DNA of 46,697 nt from Clostridia bacterium (GTDB lineage: Bacteria > Bacillota > Clostridia > Oscillospirales > Acutalibacteraceae): NCBI GenBank assembly GCA_017465085.1, contig JAFTWW010000009.1, forward strand, positions 1 through 46,697, given 5' to 3'. Below the pieces are notes generated by a model. It did no database searches. It was not told where the DNA came from and was given only the letters and a program-made list of their open reading frames with translations. The position numbers and the translations under genes are program-made. Each line of letters starts with the position of its first letter. Positions within the stretch are counted from its first letter, which is position 1. Below, in pieces: positions 32,081-46,697 of the stretch.

Positions 32081-32470
32081 TTGAAAAACAATAATGTAAG
32101 GGTTATCCAATTTTCTTTTGGGGCAATAGGCTATGGCTTTCTCGAACTGCTGTGGCGCGGAAGAACACATTGGTCTATGCTGATAGCGGGTGGGCTTTCC
32201 TTTTTAGGCCTTGGCTCCATAGGAAAAAGAATGAAGAACTGCTCTGCCGTTAAAAAGGCCGTTGCGGGAAGTCTTCTTATAACCTCTATTGAATTTGTTT
32301 TCGGCGTGATTTTCAACATCATACTTAAAAGAAATGTTTGGAACTATAGCAAAATGCCCTTAAATCTTTTCGGGCAGGTTTGCGCCCTTTATTCTGTATT
32401 ATGGGGAATTTTAAGTCTTGCGCTTATCCCCTTTACCGCTGTTTTTGAAAAATATCTTAAGAAGGAGTAA
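32081..32470 (+). CDS. Small integral membrane protein, CmpB/DUF1113-like (putative ABC-transporter type IV)
   Basis: A 129-residue protein with four predicted membrane segments (about 10-25, 35-50, 65-85, 105-125). GYGFLELLWRGRTHWSMLIAG, GSLLITSIEFVFGVIFNIIL and WNYSKMPLNLFGQVC resemble PF06541 membrane proteins, named after a putative transporter but without proven function. A GTG nine bases earlier could start the frame. TTG at 32081 is preferred because GGTGAT lies four bases before it, as for spoIIAB and the gene at 41983. Eight bases separate it from the racemase gene. Confidence 0.65.
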   Translation: MKNNNVRVIQFSFGAIGYGFLELLWRGRTHWSMLIAGGLSFLGLGSIGKRMKNCSAVKKAVAGSLLITSIEFVFGVIFNIILKRNVWNYSKMPLNLFGQVCALYSVLWGILSLALIPFTAVFEKYLKKE

Positions 32471-32477
32471 GGAGCTT

Positions 32478-33620
32478 ATGTACCGCAATACCTTTGTAAA
32501 GATCGATAAGAGCATACTAAAAGAAAACGTACATAATATAACCCAAAGCTATAGCGAATATAAATACTTTTTCGGTGTAGTTAAGGGAGATGCCTACGGT
32601 CACGGCTTTGAGGTAATTAATTCCCTTATTGAAGGCGGAGTTAATTACTTGGCGGTTGCCACTCCCGAAGAGGCTTTAAGGGTAAGGGATTTTAATAAAG
32701 AAATTCCCGTGCTTTGCTTAGAGCCTGTGAACACAAATGCTTTCTCAGCTCTTTGCGAAAACGATATCACCTTTACGGTGGATAGTTTGCAAAACGCAAA
32801 GGAGCTTTGCTCTTATGAGTGGAAAAAAACCATAAAGGCTCATATAAAGCTTGATACGGGTATGAACAGATTAGGCTTTAAGGATGAAAACCAGCTTAAA
32901 GAAGCGCTTGATCTATTAAAAAAGAACCCCAAGATAGAGCTTGAAGGAATTTACACCCATCTTGCTACAAGCGGAGTAAACGATATTTACTATGACCTTC
33001 AATTAGATAATTTCTCAAAGCTTACACGGGATATTGATCTTAAAAGCATCCCGATAGTTCATATCGGCCGCTCTTTAATTCTCGTTCATCATAAGAAGCC
33101 CCCGTTTGTAAATGGAGTAAGACTCGGCATTTGTATGTACGGCTTTTCACAAAGTCTGCCCGAGCCTACGGGTATTAGAAAAATAAAGCGTGATTTTCTT
33201 CTTAAACACAAGGGGATAAGCGAGAGTATTCTCTCAAACGATTTACACCTTCACACCGCCTTTTCTCTTTACAGCGAGGTTATCTCTGTAAAGAAGGTTA
33301 AAAAGGGTGAGTTTGTAGGTTATTCGGCAGGCTTTATTGCAAACGAGGATATGAACGTTGCCACCCTTGCCATAGGCTATTTTGACGGAATGGATAAAAA
33401 GCTCGGCAAGGTAGTTATAAACGGAGAAAAATGCGAAATCTTAGGCGAGGTGTGTATGGATATGACCGCCGTAAAGGTTTCTGACCGTGTTTCCTGCGGT
33501 GATTTAGCCGAAATTTTCGGTTACACGGTAAGCATCAGCGAAGCGGCAAGGAATATGGGTGTTAACGCCTATAAGGTATTTACGGGTATATCTCACCGAG
33601 TACCGAGAATTTACGAATAA
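32478..33620 (+). CDS. Divergent alanine-racemase-family PLP racemase
   Basis: A 380-residue fold-type III PLP enzyme. The cofactor lysine lies in VVKGDAYGHGFE (Lys36; VVKANAYGHG is usual). HIKLDTGMNRLGF, the tyrosine-base region GEFVGYSAGF, LAIGYFDGMDKK and EVCMDMTAVKVSD follow the Alr plan. It differs from the canonical alr six kilobases downstream throughout, including the active-site entrance (GYS for SYG). Its amino acid may therefore not be alanine; serine, aspartate or another residue are options that I cannot decide. The frame is open further upstream, but AAGGAG and ATG at 32478 set the start. Confidence 0.85.
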   Translation: MYRNTFVKIDKSILKENVHNITQSYSEYKYFFGVVKGDAYGHGFEVINSLIEGGVNYLAVATPEEALRVRDFNKEIPVLCLEPVNTNAFSALCENDITFTVDSLQNAKELCSYEWKKTIKAHIKLDTGMNRLGFKDENQLKEALDLLKKNPKIELEGIYTHLATSGVNDIYYDLQLDNFSKLTRDIDLKSIPIVHIGRSLILVHHKKPPFVNGVRLGICMYGFSQSLPEPTGIRKIKRDFLLKHKGISESILSNDLHLHTAFSLYSEVISVKKVKKGEFVGYSAGFIANEDMNVATLAIGYFDGMDKKLGKVVINGEKCEILGEVCMDMTAVKVSDRVSCGDLAEIFGYTVSISEAARNMGVNAYKVFTGISHRVPRIYE

Positions 33621-33640
33621 TTTAAGGATTTAGAACATTT

Positions 33641-34861
33641 ATGGATTTTGATATTCTTATAATCGGCACCGATGCCAACGCCTATTATATGGCAAGATGC
33701 TTTCACGAGCAATACGGTAAAAAGGCAACCCTGCTTGGAAAATCTCCCCTGCCCTATACCTCATTTACAGATATACTTAATCTTAAATACGATGAAAATA
33801 TATGGAGTGAAGAGGGCTTTCTAAAGGCTCTTTATGAGCATAAGGCGAAGGTGGGAGAAAAAAAGGTTTTGCTTATAAGCTCCAATGAAACCTACGCCGG
33901 CTTTATTGCAAAGAATAAAGAAAAGCTAAACCTTGCAGGTTATGTTTTTAACTATCCCGATTCTGAGCTTATAAACTCTCTAATGTATAAAGAGGAGTTT
34001 TATAAGACCTATGAGTATAGCGTTCTTGATTTACCAAAGACCGCTTATTACGATTGCAAAAAGCAGGGTGAGATACCCTCGGGCTTTACCTACCCCGTTA
34101 TACTCAAGCCCAGCAATGTTATTCTTTACAATCATCTATCCTTTGAGGGTAAGAATAAGATTTACAAAATTGAGAGCGAAGAGGAGCTAAAGAGCACCGT
34201 TAAGAGAATAATCGGCGGCGGCTATGATGATATACTCATCATTCAGGATTTTATCCCCGGAGATGATAGCTGTCTTTTTGATGCGGTGGCCTATGCCGAC
34301 AGCAACAAAAGGGTTACGCTTTTATCCTTTGCGCAGATAGGTCTTCAAGAGCACTCTAAAAATATGGTGGGCAACGCGGCTGTGCTTATAAACGGATATA
34401 ATCAGTTTGGCGGCACAGAAGAGATATGCTCAAAGCTTAAGGAATTTTTGGAGGGCATCGGCTATCAGGGCTTTGCGGAGTTTGACCTTAAATATGATAG
34501 CAGAGACGGTAAATTCAAGGTGCTTGAAATAAATGCACGGCAAGGTAGGAGCAGTTATTATATCTGTCCTCTGGGCTTTAATCCTGTAAAGCTCCTTGCA
34601 GATGACCTTATTTACGGCGAGGAAAAGGATTTCACCTTGCTAAAGGATGAGGTGCTACTCTCCTTTGTTCCCAAAGGAATAATTAAGAAATATGTAGTTA
34701 ATGAGGATTATAGGAAAAAGGCCCTCTTGCTTTGGAAAAAGGGCCACGCAAATCCTCTTTGCTATAAGAAGGATAAAAACCTGAAGAGAAGACTTTATCT
34801 TTTAAAGAAAAAGCTTCGTTACTTTAAGGAATACAAAAACGGTTATTGGAAGGTTGATTAA
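33641..34861 (+). CDS. ATP-grasp ligase, D-aspartate ligase (Aslfm)-like carboxylate-amine ligase
   Basis: A 406-residue cytoplasmic enzyme. The N-terminal ILIIGTDANAYYMARCFHEQ resembles the first strand and helix of Enterococcus Aslfm. LLISSNETYAGFIAKNKEKL and the ATP-grasp core follow: YPVILKPSN (ATP lysine), IIQDFIPGDDS, FAEFDLKYD and the metal site VLEINARQGRSS. Aslfm attaches D-aspartate to the third-position side chain of the peptidoglycan precursor. Here a racemase gene precedes and an amidotransferase and flippase follow, which supports a D-amino-acid branch. The substrate remains inference. The C terminus is Lys-rich, which may aid membrane contact. Confidence 0.72.
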   Translation: MDFDILIIGTDANAYYMARCFHEQYGKKATLLGKSPLPYTSFTDILNLKYDENIWSEEGFLKALYEHKAKVGEKKVLLISSNETYAGFIAKNKEKLNLAGYVFNYPDSELINSLMYKEEFYKTYEYSVLDLPKTAYYDCKKQGEIPSGFTYPVILKPSNVILYNHLSFEGKNKIYKIESEEELKSTVKRIIGGGYDDILIIQDFIPGDDSCLFDAVAYADSNKRVTLLSFAQIGLQEHSKNMVGNAAVLINGYNQFGGTEEICSKLKEFLEGIGYQGFAEFDLKYDSRDGKFKVLEINARQGRSSYYICPLGFNPVKLLADDLIYGEEKDFTLLKDEVLLSFVPKGIIKKYVVNEDYRKKALLLWKKGHANPLCYKKDKNLKRRLYLLKKKLRYFKEYKNGYWKVD

Positions 34862-34864
34862 CTG

Positions 34865-36709
34865 ATGTGCGGATTTATAGGCTTTACGGATGAACGTACC
34901 GCCGAGGAAAAGAAGATTATAGCCAAGAAAATGGCAGACCGTATAATCCATAGAGGACCTGACAGCGAGGGTTATTTTACCGATGATAAGGTAGCCCTTG
35001 GTTTCAGGCGCCTTTCTATAGTTGACTTAGCGGGCGGCGACCAGCCTATTTTTAATGAAGACAAAAGCAAGGTTATCGTTTTCAACGGCGAGATATATAA
35101 TCATAAGGAATTAAGGGCAGACCTTGAAAAGAAGGGACATATTTTTAAGACCAATGCCGATACCGAGGCCATTCTTCACGGCTTTGAAGAATACGGGGTA
35201 AATCTGTTCCCTATGCTTCGCGGTATGTTTGCCTTTGTTATATACGATAAGGCCACAGGTAGCCTTACGGGCGCCCGCGACCCCTTTGGCATCAAGCCCT
35301 TTTACTACTATAAAAAAGATAATAAGTTTATGTTCGGCTCTGAAATTAAGGGCTTTCTTGACCATCCTGATTTTGAGAAGGAGGTCAACAAAAAGGCTCT
35401 TAAGATGTACCTTGTTTTCCAATATTCCGTATTCGAAGAAACCTTTTTCAAAAACGTATATAAATTAACCCCAGGGCATTATTTCACCTATAATAACGGC
35501 AAATTTGAAACCAAGCCCTATTTCGAGGTTAAATACGAAAAGGAAGAAAAATCCTACGAGGAGTATAAAACTCTTATTAAAGATGCTCTTGAAAACTCGG
35601 TTAAATACCATCAGATTACGGCCGATGTTGAGGTTGGCTCCTATCTTTCGGGCGGCGTTGATTCCTCCTATGTTGTAAGCGTTGCCAAGCCTGATAAAAC
35701 CTTCACCGTAGGCTTTGATGTTAAGGGCTTTGATGAAACCAAGATGGCTCACGATTTTTCGGCTCTTATGGGTATAAATAACTATGGCAAATACATCTCG
35801 AAGGAAGAGTTTTTCGAGGCTCTTCCCCGCGTTCAATACCATACCGATGAGCCCGAGGCAAATCTTTCTGCAGTACCCCTATTATTCCTTTCAAAGCTTG
35901 CAAGGGAGAAGGTTAAGGTAGTGCTTTCGGGCGAGGGCAGCGATGAGATGTTCGGCGGATATAACGAATATCCCGAAACGGTAGGGGTCAAACTTTATCT
36001 GCTGTTTCCTGAGTTTATCCGTAAAGGTATGGCGGCTATTGCTAAAAAGCTTCCCCATTTCCCCGGTAAAAACACTATTATTAAATACAGCAAGCCCTTC
36101 TGCGAAAGATATTTGGGCCACGCTCAGATTATGGATGAGGATGAGGCCAATCAAATCCTTTGCGATGAGCTTAAGGATAATATGACTACTACCGAAGTTC
36201 TTGCCCCCTACTACGAAAAGGTTAAGGATAAGGATGATGTGCTTAAGAAAATGTATATTGATATGCATTTCTGGTTACCTCAGGATATTCTCCTTAAGGC
36301 CGATAAAATGACCATGGCAAACTCTATTGAGCTTCGCGTTCCATTCCTTGATAAAGAGGTTTGGAAGGTGGCCTCCAAGGTGCCTACAAAGTATCTCGTT
36401 AAGGGTAAGAAGACCAAGGTTATATTCAGAGATATTGCTGATGATAAGATGCCTGCCGAATGGTCTGGCAGGAGAAAGCTTGGCTTCCCCGTTCCCTTCT
36501 CAAAATGGATAAGGGAAGAAAAATACTATAAGCTCTTAAAGGCTGAATTTGAAAAGCCCTGCGTAAGCCTTTTCTTTAACAAGGAGTTTATCAATAAGCT
36601 TCTTGATGACCACTATGAAGAAAAAGCCAACAACGGAAGAAAGCTTTATAATATTTACACCTTCCTAATCTGGTATAATGTTTATTTCGGAGAAAATGTA
36701 AATGGGTAA
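34865..36709 (+). CDS. asnB: Class II glutamine-hydrolysing asparagine synthetase / amidotransferase
   Basis: A 614-residue protein. The glutaminase domain begins at Cys2 (MCGFIGFTD) with IIHRGPDSEGYF, FNGEIYNHKELRADL and GARDPFGIKPFYY. The synthetase domain has the PP-loop SYLSGGVDSSYVVSVA at about 258-273 and VVLSGEGSDEMFGGYNEYPE. Relatives make asparagine, but others amidate wall precursors (AsnH on D-Asp in Lactococcus, LtsA/AsnB on diaminopimelate). Its place between the ATP-grasp gene and the flippase favours wall amidation (inference). The 3' end overlaps the flippase by 8 bases. Confidence 0.9.
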   Translation: MCGFIGFTDERTAEEKKIIAKKMADRIIHRGPDSEGYFTDDKVALGFRRLSIVDLAGGDQPIFNEDKSKVIVFNGEIYNHKELRADLEKKGHIFKTNADTEAILHGFEEYGVNLFPMLRGMFAFVIYDKATGSLTGARDPFGIKPFYYYKKDNKFMFGSEIKGFLDHPDFEKEVNKKALKMYLVFQYSVFEETFFKNVYKLTPGHYFTYNNGKFETKPYFEVKYEKEEKSYEEYKTLIKDALENSVKYHQITADVEVGSYLSGGVDSSYVVSVAKPDKTFTVGFDVKGFDETKMAHDFSALMGINNYGKYISKEEFFEALPRVQYHTDEPEANLSAVPLLFLSKLAREKVKVVLSGEGSDEMFGGYNEYPETVGVKLYLLFPEFIRKGMAAIAKKLPHFPGKNTIIKYSKPFCERYLGHAQIMDEDEANQILCDELKDNMTTTEVLAPYYEKVKDKDDVLKKMYIDMHFWLPQDILLKADKMTMANSIELRVPFLDKEVWKVASKVPTKYLVKGKKTKVIFRDIADDKMPAEWSGRRKLGFPVPFSKWIREEKYYKLLKAEFEKPCVSLFFNKEFINKLLDDHYEEKANNGRKLYNIYTFLIWYNVYFGENVNG

Positions 36710-38318
36710 ACTGAAAAAATCCTCTTTTTTAGAGGGCGCATTTATTGCCACCGCCTGTATCTTCATAAGTAAGATTTTAGGTATTATCTATGTTATTCCG
36801 TTTAACAAGATAATCGGTGAGCAGGGCGGCGCGTTATACGGCTATGCTTACAATATTTACAATATATTTCTTAATATTTCAAGCATAGGCATTCCCTTTG
36901 CTATCTGTAAGCTTGCAAGTGAATATCAGGCTCTCGGAGAAATTGATAAAAAGGTAAGAATGTACCGTTTGGGTATGGGAATCATAACCGTTTTCTCAGT
37001 GTTATCCTTCCTTATCTGCTTTATCTTTGCCTCTCCCATAGCCACCCTTATTATCGGGGATATTGAGGGCGGAAACACCATCTCAGATGTGGTTTTCGTT
37101 ATAAGATGTATATCCTTTACCCTGCTTATTGTACCCATGCTTAGTATTAAGAGAGGCTATTTGCAGGGGCATAAGTATATAAGTCAGCCCTCCATCAGTC
37201 AGGTTATAGAGCAGATAGTAAGAATAATCGTTATTCTCGTAGGCAGCGCCGCGCTCGTTTATATCGTTAAGGCCGATATTAAATTTGCGGTTGGTATATC
37301 TGTTCTCGCGGCGGGTATAGGCGGTCTTGCATCCTATTTATATCTATCGCGAACGGTTAGCAAAAATAAAACCGATTTGAGTCTTGATATAAGGCCTAAT
37401 GATAAATCAAAGGATAAAGAGATAATCAAGGCCATTATTGTTTGCGCGGTGCCTTATATAATCATCAACATAGCAAACACCCTTTATACCACCACCGATA
37501 TGATTTTGGTGCTTAAAACCTTACCTAAGCTTAATTTTACGGGTAAGGAAACCGAGTTTGTAAGCAGTGTGTTTACCACCTGGGGCACTAAATTCAACGC
37601 TATCATTACCGCCGTTTCAACGGGACTTATAGTCAGCCTTATTCCCCATATCGTTTCGGATTACACAAAGGGTGAAACGGAGAGGGTAAACACTAATTTT
37701 AACAAATGCCTTAAAATGATAATCCTTATTATCGCTCCCCTTTCCCTTTTCATAAGCCTTATGGCAGATAGCTTCTGGACCGTTTTCTACGGCAGAAACG
37801 AAATGGGCGCTTCTATAATTAAATTTTCAATTATTGTTACGGTGTTTGACTGTCTTTATATGGTGCTTAACTCTGCTATGCAGAGCCTTAACCGTAAGCA
37901 GATAATTTATAAGAGTGTGCTTTCGGGCCTTGCGGTAAATCTTGTGCTTGATGTTCCGCTTATGTATCTTTTCTCATATCTTGGTCTTAAAGCATATCAC
38001 GGCGCTATCACCGCTACCCTTTTAGGCTTTATTGTTTCTAACACCTTAAGCCTTTCATACCTTAAAAAGCATATGAATATAAGCTTTAAGGAAACCCTTA
38101 AAACTTTGCCGCGGGCGGCTGTATCCCTATTGGTTTTAATAATTCTCGGTGTGATTGCCAACAAGGTTTTACCCACCGATAACCCATCCCGCCTTGTTCA
38201 GATTATTAACATAGCGGTTTCGGGTATAGTTTGCGGCGGCGTTTATCTTATAATCAATCTAAAAGAACTAAAAACAGTTCTACCTGAGAAGCTTCTCAAA
38301 AAATTACACTTATCATAA
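36702..38318 (+). CDS. YtgP/SpoVB-type lipid II flippase (MATE/MOP superfamily)
   Basis: A 538-residue polytopic protein with about 14 membrane helices. FLEGAFIATACIFISKILGI and the following VIPFNKIIGEQGGALYGYAY are typical of the PST/SpoVB family. YtgP (Amj/MurJ functional class) translocates lipid-linked peptidoglycan precursor; SpoVB does the same for the spore cortex. Teichoic or other polysaccharide repeat units are an alternative cargo. The start codon lies within the end of asnB, after GGAG, so the two are translationally coupled. That is the strongest sign that the synthetase works on an envelope precursor. Confidence 0.9.
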   Translation: MGKLKKSSFLEGAFIATACIFISKILGIIYVIPFNKIIGEQGGALYGYAYNIYNIFLNISSIGIPFAICKLASEYQALGEIDKKVRMYRLGMGIITVFSVLSFLICFIFASPIATLIIGDIEGGNTISDVVFVIRCISFTLLIVPMLSIKRGYLQGHKYISQPSISQVIEQIVRIIVILVGSAALVYIVKADIKFAVGISVLAAGIGGLASYLYLSRTVSKNKTDLSLDIRPNDKSKDKEIIKAIIVCAVPYIIINIANTLYTTTDMILVLKTLPKLNFTGKETEFVSSVFTTWGTKFNAIITAVSTGLIVSLIPHIVSDYTKGETERVNTNFNKCLKMIILIIAPLSLFISLMADSFWTVFYGRNEMGASIIKFSIIVTVFDCLYMVLNSAMQSLNRKQIIYKSVLSGLAVNLVLDVPLMYLFSYLGLKAYHGAITATLLGFIVSNTLSLSYLKKHMNISFKETLKTLPRAAVSLLVLIILGVIANKVLPTDNPSRLVQIINIAVSGIVCGGVYLIINLKELKTVLPEKLLKKLHLS

Positions 38319-38331
38319 AGAAGGTATAGCT

Positions 38332-39462
38332 TTGGAATTTTTGCGAAGAACCTGGGCGGAGATAGATGTTTCCGCTCTTAAACACAATCTTAAAATTCTT
38401 GAAAACACCTCAAAGGAAAGCAGTATCTGCGCCGTTGTTAAGGCCAATGCTTACGGCCATAGTGACAGTATCGTGGCTCCTGTACTCTGTAAAGCAGGCG
38501 TCAACCTTTTTGCTGTTTCCAATATAGAAGAGGCCCTTCATCTAAGGGCGATAGGTATTGATAAGCCTATACTCATTTTAGGTTACACCCCTGCCGCGTT
38601 GGCAGGTACCCTCGCTGAGCATAATATCTCCCAATGTGTTTTTTCTCTGAGTTATGCCAATGAGCTTTCCCGTTTTGCAGTAAGCAAGGGAGTTACCGTA
38701 AAGGTTCATATAAAGCTTGATACGGGTATGGGCAGAATAGGTTTTGACCTGAGAAGCAATGATTTAAGCGAAATCGACCTTGCCATATCTGCGGCGAAGC
38801 TTCAAGGCTTTGAGTTCGAGGGACTCTTCACCCACTTTGCCTTCTCCGACCGAAACGAAACCGAGGAGGATGGATTCACCGATGAGCAGTATGCCCGTTT
38901 TGAGCACGCTGTTAAAAGGTTTGAAGAAGCGGGACTTAAGGCAAAATTTAACCATTGCCGTAATTCTGCCGCAATGTTAAAGGATAGCCGTAAGCAACTT
39001 GATTTAAGCCGCGCGGGAATATGCCTTTACGGCCTTACCCCATCATCCGAACTCACTCTTAAAGAGGATTTTATTCCCGTTATGACTCTTAAATCTGTTG
39101 TATCACAGGTTAAGACCATACATAAGGGTGATACCGTAAGCTATGGCAGAACCTTTGAGGCAGAAAAGGATATGACCGTTGCCACCGTTTCTGCAGGCTA
39201 TGCAGATGGATACCCAAGGCTCCTTTCAAACAAGGGATATGTTCTTATAAACGGCAAAAAAGCCCATATCTTAGGTCGCGTTTGTATGGACCAATTCGTT
39301 GTTGACATTACAGATATTGATAATGTTGCTACCGATAGCGAGGTTATCCTTTTTGGCAAGGACCTGCCCGTAGAGGAAATTGCAGGGCTTTGCGGCACCA
39401 TAAATTATGAGATAATTTGCGGCGTATCACCGAGAGTTCCTAGAATTGAAGTTAACGAATAA
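38332..39462 (+). CDS. alr: Alanine racemase
   Basis: A 376-residue PLP enzyme: cofactor lysine in AVVKANAYGHSDS (Lys37), KVHIKLDTGMGRIGFD, the base tyrosine in DTVSYGRTFEAEKDM, VSAGYADGYPRLL, GRVCMDQFVVDITD and the C-terminal CGVSPRVPRI. It supplies D-alanine for peptidoglycan. Translation begins at TTG, seven bases after AAGAAGG, 13 bases after the flippase stop, and a strong terminator closes the cassette. Confidence 0.95.
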   Translation: MEFLRRTWAEIDVSALKHNLKILENTSKESSICAVVKANAYGHSDSIVAPVLCKAGVNLFAVSNIEEALHLRAIGIDKPILILGYTPAALAGTLAEHNISQCVFSLSYANELSRFAVSKGVTVKVHIKLDTGMGRIGFDLRSNDLSEIDLAISAAKLQGFEFEGLFTHFAFSDRNETEEDGFTDEQYARFEHAVKRFEEAGLKAKFNHCRNSAAMLKDSRKQLDLSRAGICLYGLTPSSELTLKEDFIPVMTLKSVVSQVKTIHKGDTVSYGRTFEAEKDMTVATVSAGYADGYPRLLSNKGYVLINGKKAHILGRVCMDQFVVDITDIDNVATDSEVILFGKDLPVEEIAGLCGTINYEIICGVSPRVPRIEVNE

Positions 39463-46623: not shown

Positions 46624-46697
46624 TGGTGGACCAACAGGGACTCGAACCCCGGACCGACCGGTTATGAGCCGGTTGCTCTAACCAACTGAGCTATTGG
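46624..46697 (-). tRNA. tRNA with CAU anticodon (Met elongator or Ile2), 5' end cut off
   Basis: Read on the minus strand: D arm AGCTCAGTTGGTTAGAGC, anticodon stem-loop ACCGGCTCATAACCGGT with anticodon CAT (46664-46666), T arm GGGGTTCGAGTCCC, acceptor TTGGTCCA and encoded CCA (46624-46626). The first four to five bases lie beyond the window. CAU may be elongator methionine or the isoleucine tRNA modified by TilS to read AUA. The AGAGCA and CGGCTCATAACCG parts resemble Bacillus tRNA-Ile2, but the missing acceptor bases prevent a firm choice. It is not the initiator, which lacks this D arm. Confidence 0.92.

Follow-up and report, generated by a model that had tools for sequence, protein, structure and literature searches.

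A PLP-dependent Alr-fold racemase linked to a D-aspartate-ligase-type ATP-grasp enzyme and a class II amidotransferase: a candidate peptidoglycan branch pathway in uncultured Clostridia and Bacilli

The D-aspartate or D-asparagine cross-bridges of Lactococcus lactis, Enterococcus faecium and lactobacilli are made by the AslA/Aslfm-RacD-AsnH system, in which an ATP-grasp ligase is combined with a dedicated racemase and a class II amidotransferase. The described D-Asp walls carry Lys; D-residue bridges are also borne by the A4γ walls of Brachybacterium and Dermabacteraceae. Excerpts of PMC4155827 place AslA and RacD of L. lactis in one operon, have AsnH amidate D-Asp after its attachment, connect amidated D-Asp with reduced lysozyme and nisin sensitivity, and ascribe D-Asp or D-Asn bridges to most lactobacilli. 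The excerpted parts of PMC3035206 and PMC6090031 report A4γ walls with meso-diaminopimelic acid (mDAP) for Brachybacterium and Dermabacteraceae, and those of PMC5786688 give Lys-D-Glu for Planococcus, Lys-Gly-D-Glu for Sporosarcina and Lys-D-Asp for Paenisporosarcina. Here, we analyse a 46,697-nucleotide stretch of DNA from a Clostridia bacterium (GCA_017465085.1, contig JAFTWW010000009.1; hereafter the window), which is contig C45 of a 52-contig, 1.66 Mb genome (G000) that is 96% complete. Three adjacent genes of the window encode a pyridoxal phosphate (PLP)-dependent racemase of the Alr fold (rac), an ATP-grasp ligase (lig) and a class II glutamine amidotransferase (asnB).

The locus shares with the AslA/Aslfm-RacD-AsnH system a homologous ATP-grasp ligase, an adjoining dedicated racemase and an adjoining class II amidotransferase. 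It differs in that the racemase is PLP-dependent and Alr-fold rather than of the RacD kind, the ligase falls in another clan, and the only MurE found in the host is of the mDAP type, whereas described D-Asp walls carry Lys. We propose, with a probability of roughly 55%, that D-Asp made by the Alr-fold racemase is ligated to the diamino acid at position 3 of the wall peptide, here mDAP, and then amidated. In this scheme, rac, with its changed pocket, would act as a racemase of an acidic amino acid, most likely turning L-Asp into D-Asp. Using ATP, lig would activate a carboxylate of the D-residue and couple it, on the MurNAc-peptide precursor, to the side-chain amine of the diamino acid at position 3, which in the window genome should be mDAP, giving an mDAP-D-Asp (A4γ-like) branch. 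AsnB would then amidate the attached residue, the step that AsnH carries out on D-Asp in L. lactis, and the precursor would be turned over by a lipid II flippase, perhaps, though not necessarily, the neighbouring one. The whole would form a cytoplasmic branch of peptidoglycan precursor synthesis, following the AslA-RacD-AsnH scheme with an unrelated racemase.

The replacement of one racemase by another is seen across the neighbourhoods of lig homologues. A gene was counted as beside lig when it lay on the same strand within 3,500 bases, and racemase class was taken from the best BLAST match to a few reference proteins. Among 129 readable lig loci, 55 had rac, 20 an aspartate-type racemase, one MurI and 53 none; rac and an aspartate-type racemase never occurred at the same locus (0/129). 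In all 55 cases rac lies directly upstream of lig, at a gap of −67 to 253 bases (median 12). The neighbour counts are lower bounds because antisense frames won over real ones in open reading frame calling, at the cost of L051 and L056–L058 (4/38 order loci), L288 (1/80 named loci) and L324 (1/4 plasmid loci); loci scored as lacking a racemase, such as L039, L046 and L048–L050, may conceal one. In the order to which the window genome belongs, 39 of 245 genomes, the window's included, carry a strong lig match (E 2e-48 or lower) and 57 any match. The other 38 strong loci were fetched, and the 34 that were readable had an aspartate-type racemase (18), asnB (19) or a MurE homologue (15) beside lig. 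The aspartate-type racemase usually lies downstream of lig, and four were confirmed as PF01177 and TIGR00035. Such loci (L035, L042, L052, L053, L061) have the same ligase family, often an amidotransferase and often a second MurE, with the aspartate-type racemase where the window has rac. A preliminary description of this DNA, made from its sequence, had proposed a racemase other than the PLP-independent kind, and this is borne out.

Within the genus, a strong lig match is present in 14 of 70 genomes, with weak matches only in two more. Thirteen of the 14 have rac, and in the last (G300) the contig ends within lig. No rac was found in the 56 genomes without strong lig: 15 of these match rac at E ≤ 1e-30, all through ordinary Alr, and 16 Alr matches in the genus score 386–515 bits to the window's canonical alr versus 136–169 to rac. 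The co-occurrence of rac and lig gives a Fisher p of 3e-13, although the genomes are related and hence not independent samples. A TIGR00035 racemase above cut-off was found in three of the 70 genomes, two of them without lig, so that 13 of the 14 lig genomes lack one; in the window genome the sole PF01177 match is MurI and no aspartate-type racemase was found. In a second genome of the genus (G290, locus L104), the order murB-ROK-HprK-YchF-CmpB-rac-lig matches that of the window at 49–89% identity, and lig carries an in-frame stop; this recurrence makes an assembly chimera or binning artefact unlikely.

Outside the genus, we examined the best 80 of 569 confirmed loci, ranked by match to the window ligase and hence enriched in rac-linked loci. 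Rac is beside lig in 43 of the 79 readable named loci, and asnB in 30 of these 43; two entries (L223, L242) duplicate the contigs of genus loci L109 and L111 and enter the counts twice. The proposal of a new route in Clostridia is too narrow, since 23 of the 30 loci are titled Bacilli or Tenericutes, the rest being Clostridia, Lachnospiraceae, Coriobacteriia, Firmicutes and Bacillota. The lig and the asnB of one Bacilli locus (L218) both fall with those of genus sub-clade B, which points to transfer of the unit. The three genes rac-lig-asnB form the recurring unit.

The linkage bears on whether the three genes are merely ordinary neighbours, with rac a spare alanine racemase, asnB an ordinary asparagine synthetase and lig of unrelated function. 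A canonical alr does lie close by, asnB is a common housekeeping gene, and lig has no curated family above cut-off. This explanation is nevertheless already disfavoured and very improbable: rac and lig are linked in 55 loci from metagenome-assembled genomes titled Bacilli, Tenericutes, Clostridia, Lachnospiraceae and Coriobacteriia, the genus holds no rac without lig, and the asnB of the locus is a second copy.

Rac passes the alanine racemase model TIGR00492 (272.7 bits against a cut-off of 168) and has no match to the RacD-type families PF01177 and TIGR00035, matching PF01168 and PF00842 instead. A tree places 49 rac sequences on one side of a branch and 46 Alr on the other (support 100), with the window's canonical alr among the other Alr of the genus; all trees were quick or FastTree builds on thinned rows (107/124, 95/102 and 55/80). 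Residues were compared in an alignment of 54 rac and 48 Alr sequences, numbered after what we take to be the Geobacillus enzyme. K39, Y43, R136, S204, R219 and Y265 are kept in all 54 rac. Position 203, which is Asn in 47 of 48 Alr, is Arg in 48, Lys in five and Asn in one of the 54 rac; G86 is Glu in 53. In S. aureus Alr, excerpts of PMC3245724 assign Asp171, Arg290 and Arg309 to the middle layer of the substrate entryway and have Asn203 contact the PLP phosphate through water. D171 is lost in all 54 rac, and R309 is changed in at least 51, to Asp or Glu in 40. The new basic residue at 203 beside an intact catalytic pair, together with the remodelled entryway, would fit an acidic substrate. 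Rac is a member of the Alr fold whose alanine specificity is doubtful, given its separate branch and the changes at N203, D171 and R309; the tree and residues likewise disfavour an ordinary Alr. VanT serine racemase and broad-specificity relatives put the Alr fold to another amino acid in a similar way. Rac as a VanT is rejected on profile scores, as it matches VanT profiles below their cut-offs (VanT-G 202 bits versus 273 for alr); it is also linked to a side-chain ligase, not a D-Ala-D-Ser ligase. Tyr354, at which VanT differs, is kept in 53 of 54 rac.

Lig has no Pfam family at E 0.001, and its one NCBIfam match, a carbamoyl-phosphate-synthase-like model, is far under cut-off; no curated family scored above cut-off. 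Its AlphaFold model (mean confidence, pLDDT, 92) adopts an ATP-grasp fold. Foldseek returned 494 PDB matches at E ≤ 0.001, led by an L-amino-acid ligase; the best 50 of the 494 have query TM values of 0.49–0.61, and by their names we take these 50 to be ATP-grasp enzymes. Sequence searches of the PDB yielded a single chance-level match for lig itself and, for a profile, weak matches only, mostly to ATP-grasp kin. In a 32-row alignment, K156, D282, N298 and R300 are invariant and E296 is nearly so; K156, D282 and N298 are presumably metal/ATP residues. Translated searching of plasmid records gave 42 matches. Lig is 31–34% identical over 90% to lactobacillus homologues; the plasmid matches from Limosilactobacillus fermentum, Latilactobacillus curvatus and Lactobacillus crispatus, all three presumably with D-Asp or D-Asn bridges, are at 31–33%, and lig is 35% identical to a Subdoligranulum plasmid homologue. 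Most of the other matches are Priestia proteins annotated as carbamoyl-phosphate synthase (28–30% over 60–67%). The L. curvatus homologue is preceded by aspS and an amino-acid racemase, the L. crispatus one follows asnB, and the L. fermentum one adjoins neither. The comparison with the family was made against these lactobacillus copies. As first suggested, lig is homologous to enzymes of the D-aspartate-ligase class (AslA/Aslfm type), and the named proteins closest to it over the full length are ligases of the wall type, not members of a non-wall ATP-grasp family.

Rooted at its midpoint, the lig tree divides into three main clans: one with aspartate-type-racemase loci and lactobacilli, one with Planococcaceae and allies, and the rac-linked clan, whose 52 rows, 50 with rac, have full support. 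The clan nearest to the window's is that of Planococcaceae, including Planococcus, Sporosarcina and Paenisporosarcina, which have A4α walls; the listed Planococcaceae lig loci have neither racemase nor asnB adjoining, and one Paenibacillus (L281) has a MurI-like gene next to lig. Given these contexts and wall types, the neighbouring racemase, where present, may match the added residue.

AsnB resembles AsnH in being a ligase-linked class II amidotransferase that is separate from the ordinary asnB. The window genome's ordinary copy, on contig C24, is 51% identical to that of the locus. Sub-clade A of the genus has the asnB next to lig in addition to the ordinary one, which is present at 48–51% identity in G000, G249, G275, G296 and G302 and as fragments in G290 and G293; seven sub-clade B genomes have a single match each, at 58–60%. 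In the asnB tree, 30 of 32 rac-linked rows and two other rows form one cluster apart from the ordinary copies of the genus, the asnB of L225 and L230 falling outside it. Class II asnB genes flank rac-lig on both sides in L216 and L222, at 46% and 64–65% identity to the window asnB, and in L036 (7879-8883) the ammonia-type asparagine synthetase AsnA directly follows lig, in the position taken elsewhere by asnB.

The acceptor was approached through MurE, in which the motif DNPR marks the mDAP type. The single MurE of the window genome reads DNPRSEEP and lies elsewhere, beside frames that read as a penicillin-binding protein and an MraY-like protein; a Lys-type wall is thus not supported. MurE was sought in 34 lig genomes (26 from the order set, eight from the genus set including G000 and G043) and found in all, as one copy in 15 and as two or more in 19. 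Of 29 MurE loci from this search, 28 read DNPR, DNSR or DNAR; the lig-linked copy of G178 (L145) is the one exception, with DNPD. Among the 18 MurE homologues on the stretches fetched for the order, 17 lack DNPR, the exception being one of two in L056. For the named loci, the genomes of 22 of the 80 were searched (one, L217, without a readable rac), and MurE was found in 19: DNPR types only in 11, DNPR plus a different motif in five, a fragment plus a different motif in one, and a different motif only in two.

Several of these linked MurE genes lie with enzymes of diamino acid synthesis. In L043 (6060-8474), a MurE homologue adjoining lig is a fusion with an acetylglutamate kinase domain of the ArgB type, in a genome (G162) that also has a canonical DNPR MurE; the fusion suggests ornithine as substrate and an ornithine-type wall branch. 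Proteins of similar length occur in L044, L056 and L058. Two Lachnospiraceae loci (L248, 9169-11891; L291, 9128-11835) have the order rac-lig-asnB-diaminobutyrate transaminase-MurE, with the transaminase and both MurEs recovered by profile scans in L248 and MurE only in L291. This odd MurE is the only one found in either genome, which points to diaminobutyrate as the third residue of the wall peptide. In L250 and L275, an arginase-family gene lies near rac-lig-MurE; their divergent MurE reads EDPR, which makes a substrate change less clear. In L213, rac-lig is inserted in inverted orientation within the dcw (division and cell wall) cluster, between mraZ-mraW-(227 aa, no Pfam match) and penicillin-binding protein-murE-mraY. 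These non-DNPR MurE genes with ornithine- or diaminobutyrate-making enzymes, and the dcw insertion, tie the unit to peptidoglycan. Cyanophycin-like synthesis by an ATP-grasp enzyme and a Mur ligase was dropped, as six lig-linked Mur proteins score 276–396 bits to TIGR01085 murE versus 66–120 to cyanophycin synthetase. L251 has a sortase gene (PF04203; 5466-6239) after rac-lig, and as sortases attach proteins to cross-bridge amines the pairing may merit attention; its 'MurE', at 23% identity, is probably a different Mur ligase and was not counted as support.

A target other than peptidoglycan, whether a different lipid-linked or a soluble polymer, is improbable. The window itself names no acceptor, as its genome's single MurE lies elsewhere, and a polysaccharide-type flippase adjoins the unit; set against this are the homology of lig to the lactobacillus ligases, the MurE genes linked to the unit at five named rac loci and to lig at 15 of 34 order loci, and the insertion in L213.

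Several observations weigh against D-Asp as the added residue, or against the three-gene scheme. The rac of L221 retains Asn203, 11 of 54 rac have Gly at D313 and eight have Gln at H166, and a contact between Arg203 and the substrate carboxylate is a guess, since residue 203 meets the PLP phosphate through water in S. aureus Alr. At 15 of 55 rac loci, including some at contig ends, asnB is missing. One lig genome (G301) also holds a TIGR00035 racemase, and a D-amino-acid transaminase is another conceivable source of D-Asp. Supported branches separate the rac-linked and Planococcaceae clans of lig from the lactobacillus clan, so we place lig in the AslA/Aslfm family but do not call it an orthologue. 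The rac-linked clan has private residues L212, I233 and E280 in 50 of 50 rows, position 280 being Asn in 17/17 and 24/24 rows of the other two; with these residues, the substrate of lig may be neither D-Asp nor D-Glu. Its nearness to D-Glu-type ligases may also keep other D-amino acids in play.

These last two features hold our estimate for D-Asp to the value given above and leave some weight for the same wall branch with another rac-made residue (D-Ser, D-Asn, D-Ala or D-Glu), asnB then making L-Asn for rac or amidating mDAP like AsnB1 of L. plantarum. We consider this alternative unlikely but worth keeping. The neighbouring clan includes D-Glu genera, E280 and the other private residues set lig apart, rac does match VanT profiles, though below cut-offs, and AsnB1 co-localises with murE and amidates mDAP according to excerpts of PMC4155827. 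On the other hand, the window genome already has MurI for D-Glu and alr for D-Ala, VanT-G scores under alr for rac, the D-residues reported for the ligase family in the excerpted sources are dicarboxylic, and Arg or Lys at 203 would suit an acidic substrate.

More tentatively than the D-Asp branch itself, we suggest that a PLP-dependent, Alr-fold aspartate racemase emerged a single time among alanine racemases and moves together with a dedicated ligase and amidotransferase among uncultured gut Bacilli and Clostridia, placing amidated D-Asp on mDAP (an A4γ-like wall in Firmicutes) or, with other MurE genes, on ornithine or diaminobutyrate. If so, a known wall pathway would have a second, unrelated racemase, and genes would predict the wall chemistry of uncultured gut bacteria (D-residue branch, diamino acid and amidation), which would bear on how sensitive they are to lysozyme and nisin and on how hosts sense muropeptides. 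Residue 203 and the entryway would give a testable rule for substrate change in the alanine-racemase fold. Among the titles and abstract openings listed in literature searches, none connects an Alr-type racemase with a D-aspartate ligase, which is weak evidence of novelty.

The preliminary description listed six closely spaced or overlapping plus-strand genes, and all six frames are indeed intact, with intergenic spacings of 7, 20, 3, −8 and 13 bases.

Table 1. Coordinates of the six-gene region in the window.
Feature	Position	Strand	Annotation
Small membrane protein	32072 or 32081-32470	+	PF06541 match; neighbour, not core
rac, PLP-dependent Alr-fold racemase, divergent clade	32478-33620	+	PF01168 and PF00842; ATG start preceded by AAGGAG; proposed aspartate (acidic D-amino acid) racemase
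lig, ATP-grasp carboxylate-amine ligase	33641-34861	+	Homologous to AslA/Aslfm-type (D-aspartate) ligases; no Pfam family
asnB, class II glutamine amidotransferase	34865-36709	+	PF00733 and PF13537 (GATase_7); AsnH-like amidation proposed
YtgP/SpoVB-type flippase	36702-38318	+	PF01943; SpoVB TIGR02900 below cut-off; co-directional neighbour, not core
alr, canonical alanine racemase	38332-39462	+	TIGR00492, 375 bits; neighbour, not core

Conservation of the whole six-gene order, by contrast, is not kept in relatives, where the three-gene core recurs widely. The idea of a pathway acting on a wall precursor is supported by the family's tie to peptidoglycan genes, but the flippase, membrane protein and second alr, which occur in some close relatives only, fall outside the core. 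Among 11 fetched rac loci of the genus (L101–L113), several on contigs that end early, the flippase follows asnB in five and alr is seen in two. The flippase was not seen in the fetched stretches of the other sub-clade, where an ABC (ATP-binding cassette)-transporter ATPase, as read from the sequence, takes its position. A dedicated flippase as a core part was rejected, as it follows asnB in one sub-clade only; the window genome has two matches to it including itself, the other 22% identical. The small membrane protein lies upstream of rac in L104 and between the flippase and alr in L105.

No terminator-like plus-strand site is listed between the membrane-protein gene and the start of asnB; one lies within asnB and one within the flippase gene. 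The region has 15 terminator-like sites versus 10.6 (standard deviation 3.2) in shuffled sequence. At the end of the window (46627-46697, minus strand), Rfam identifies a tRNA gene truncated by the contig end.

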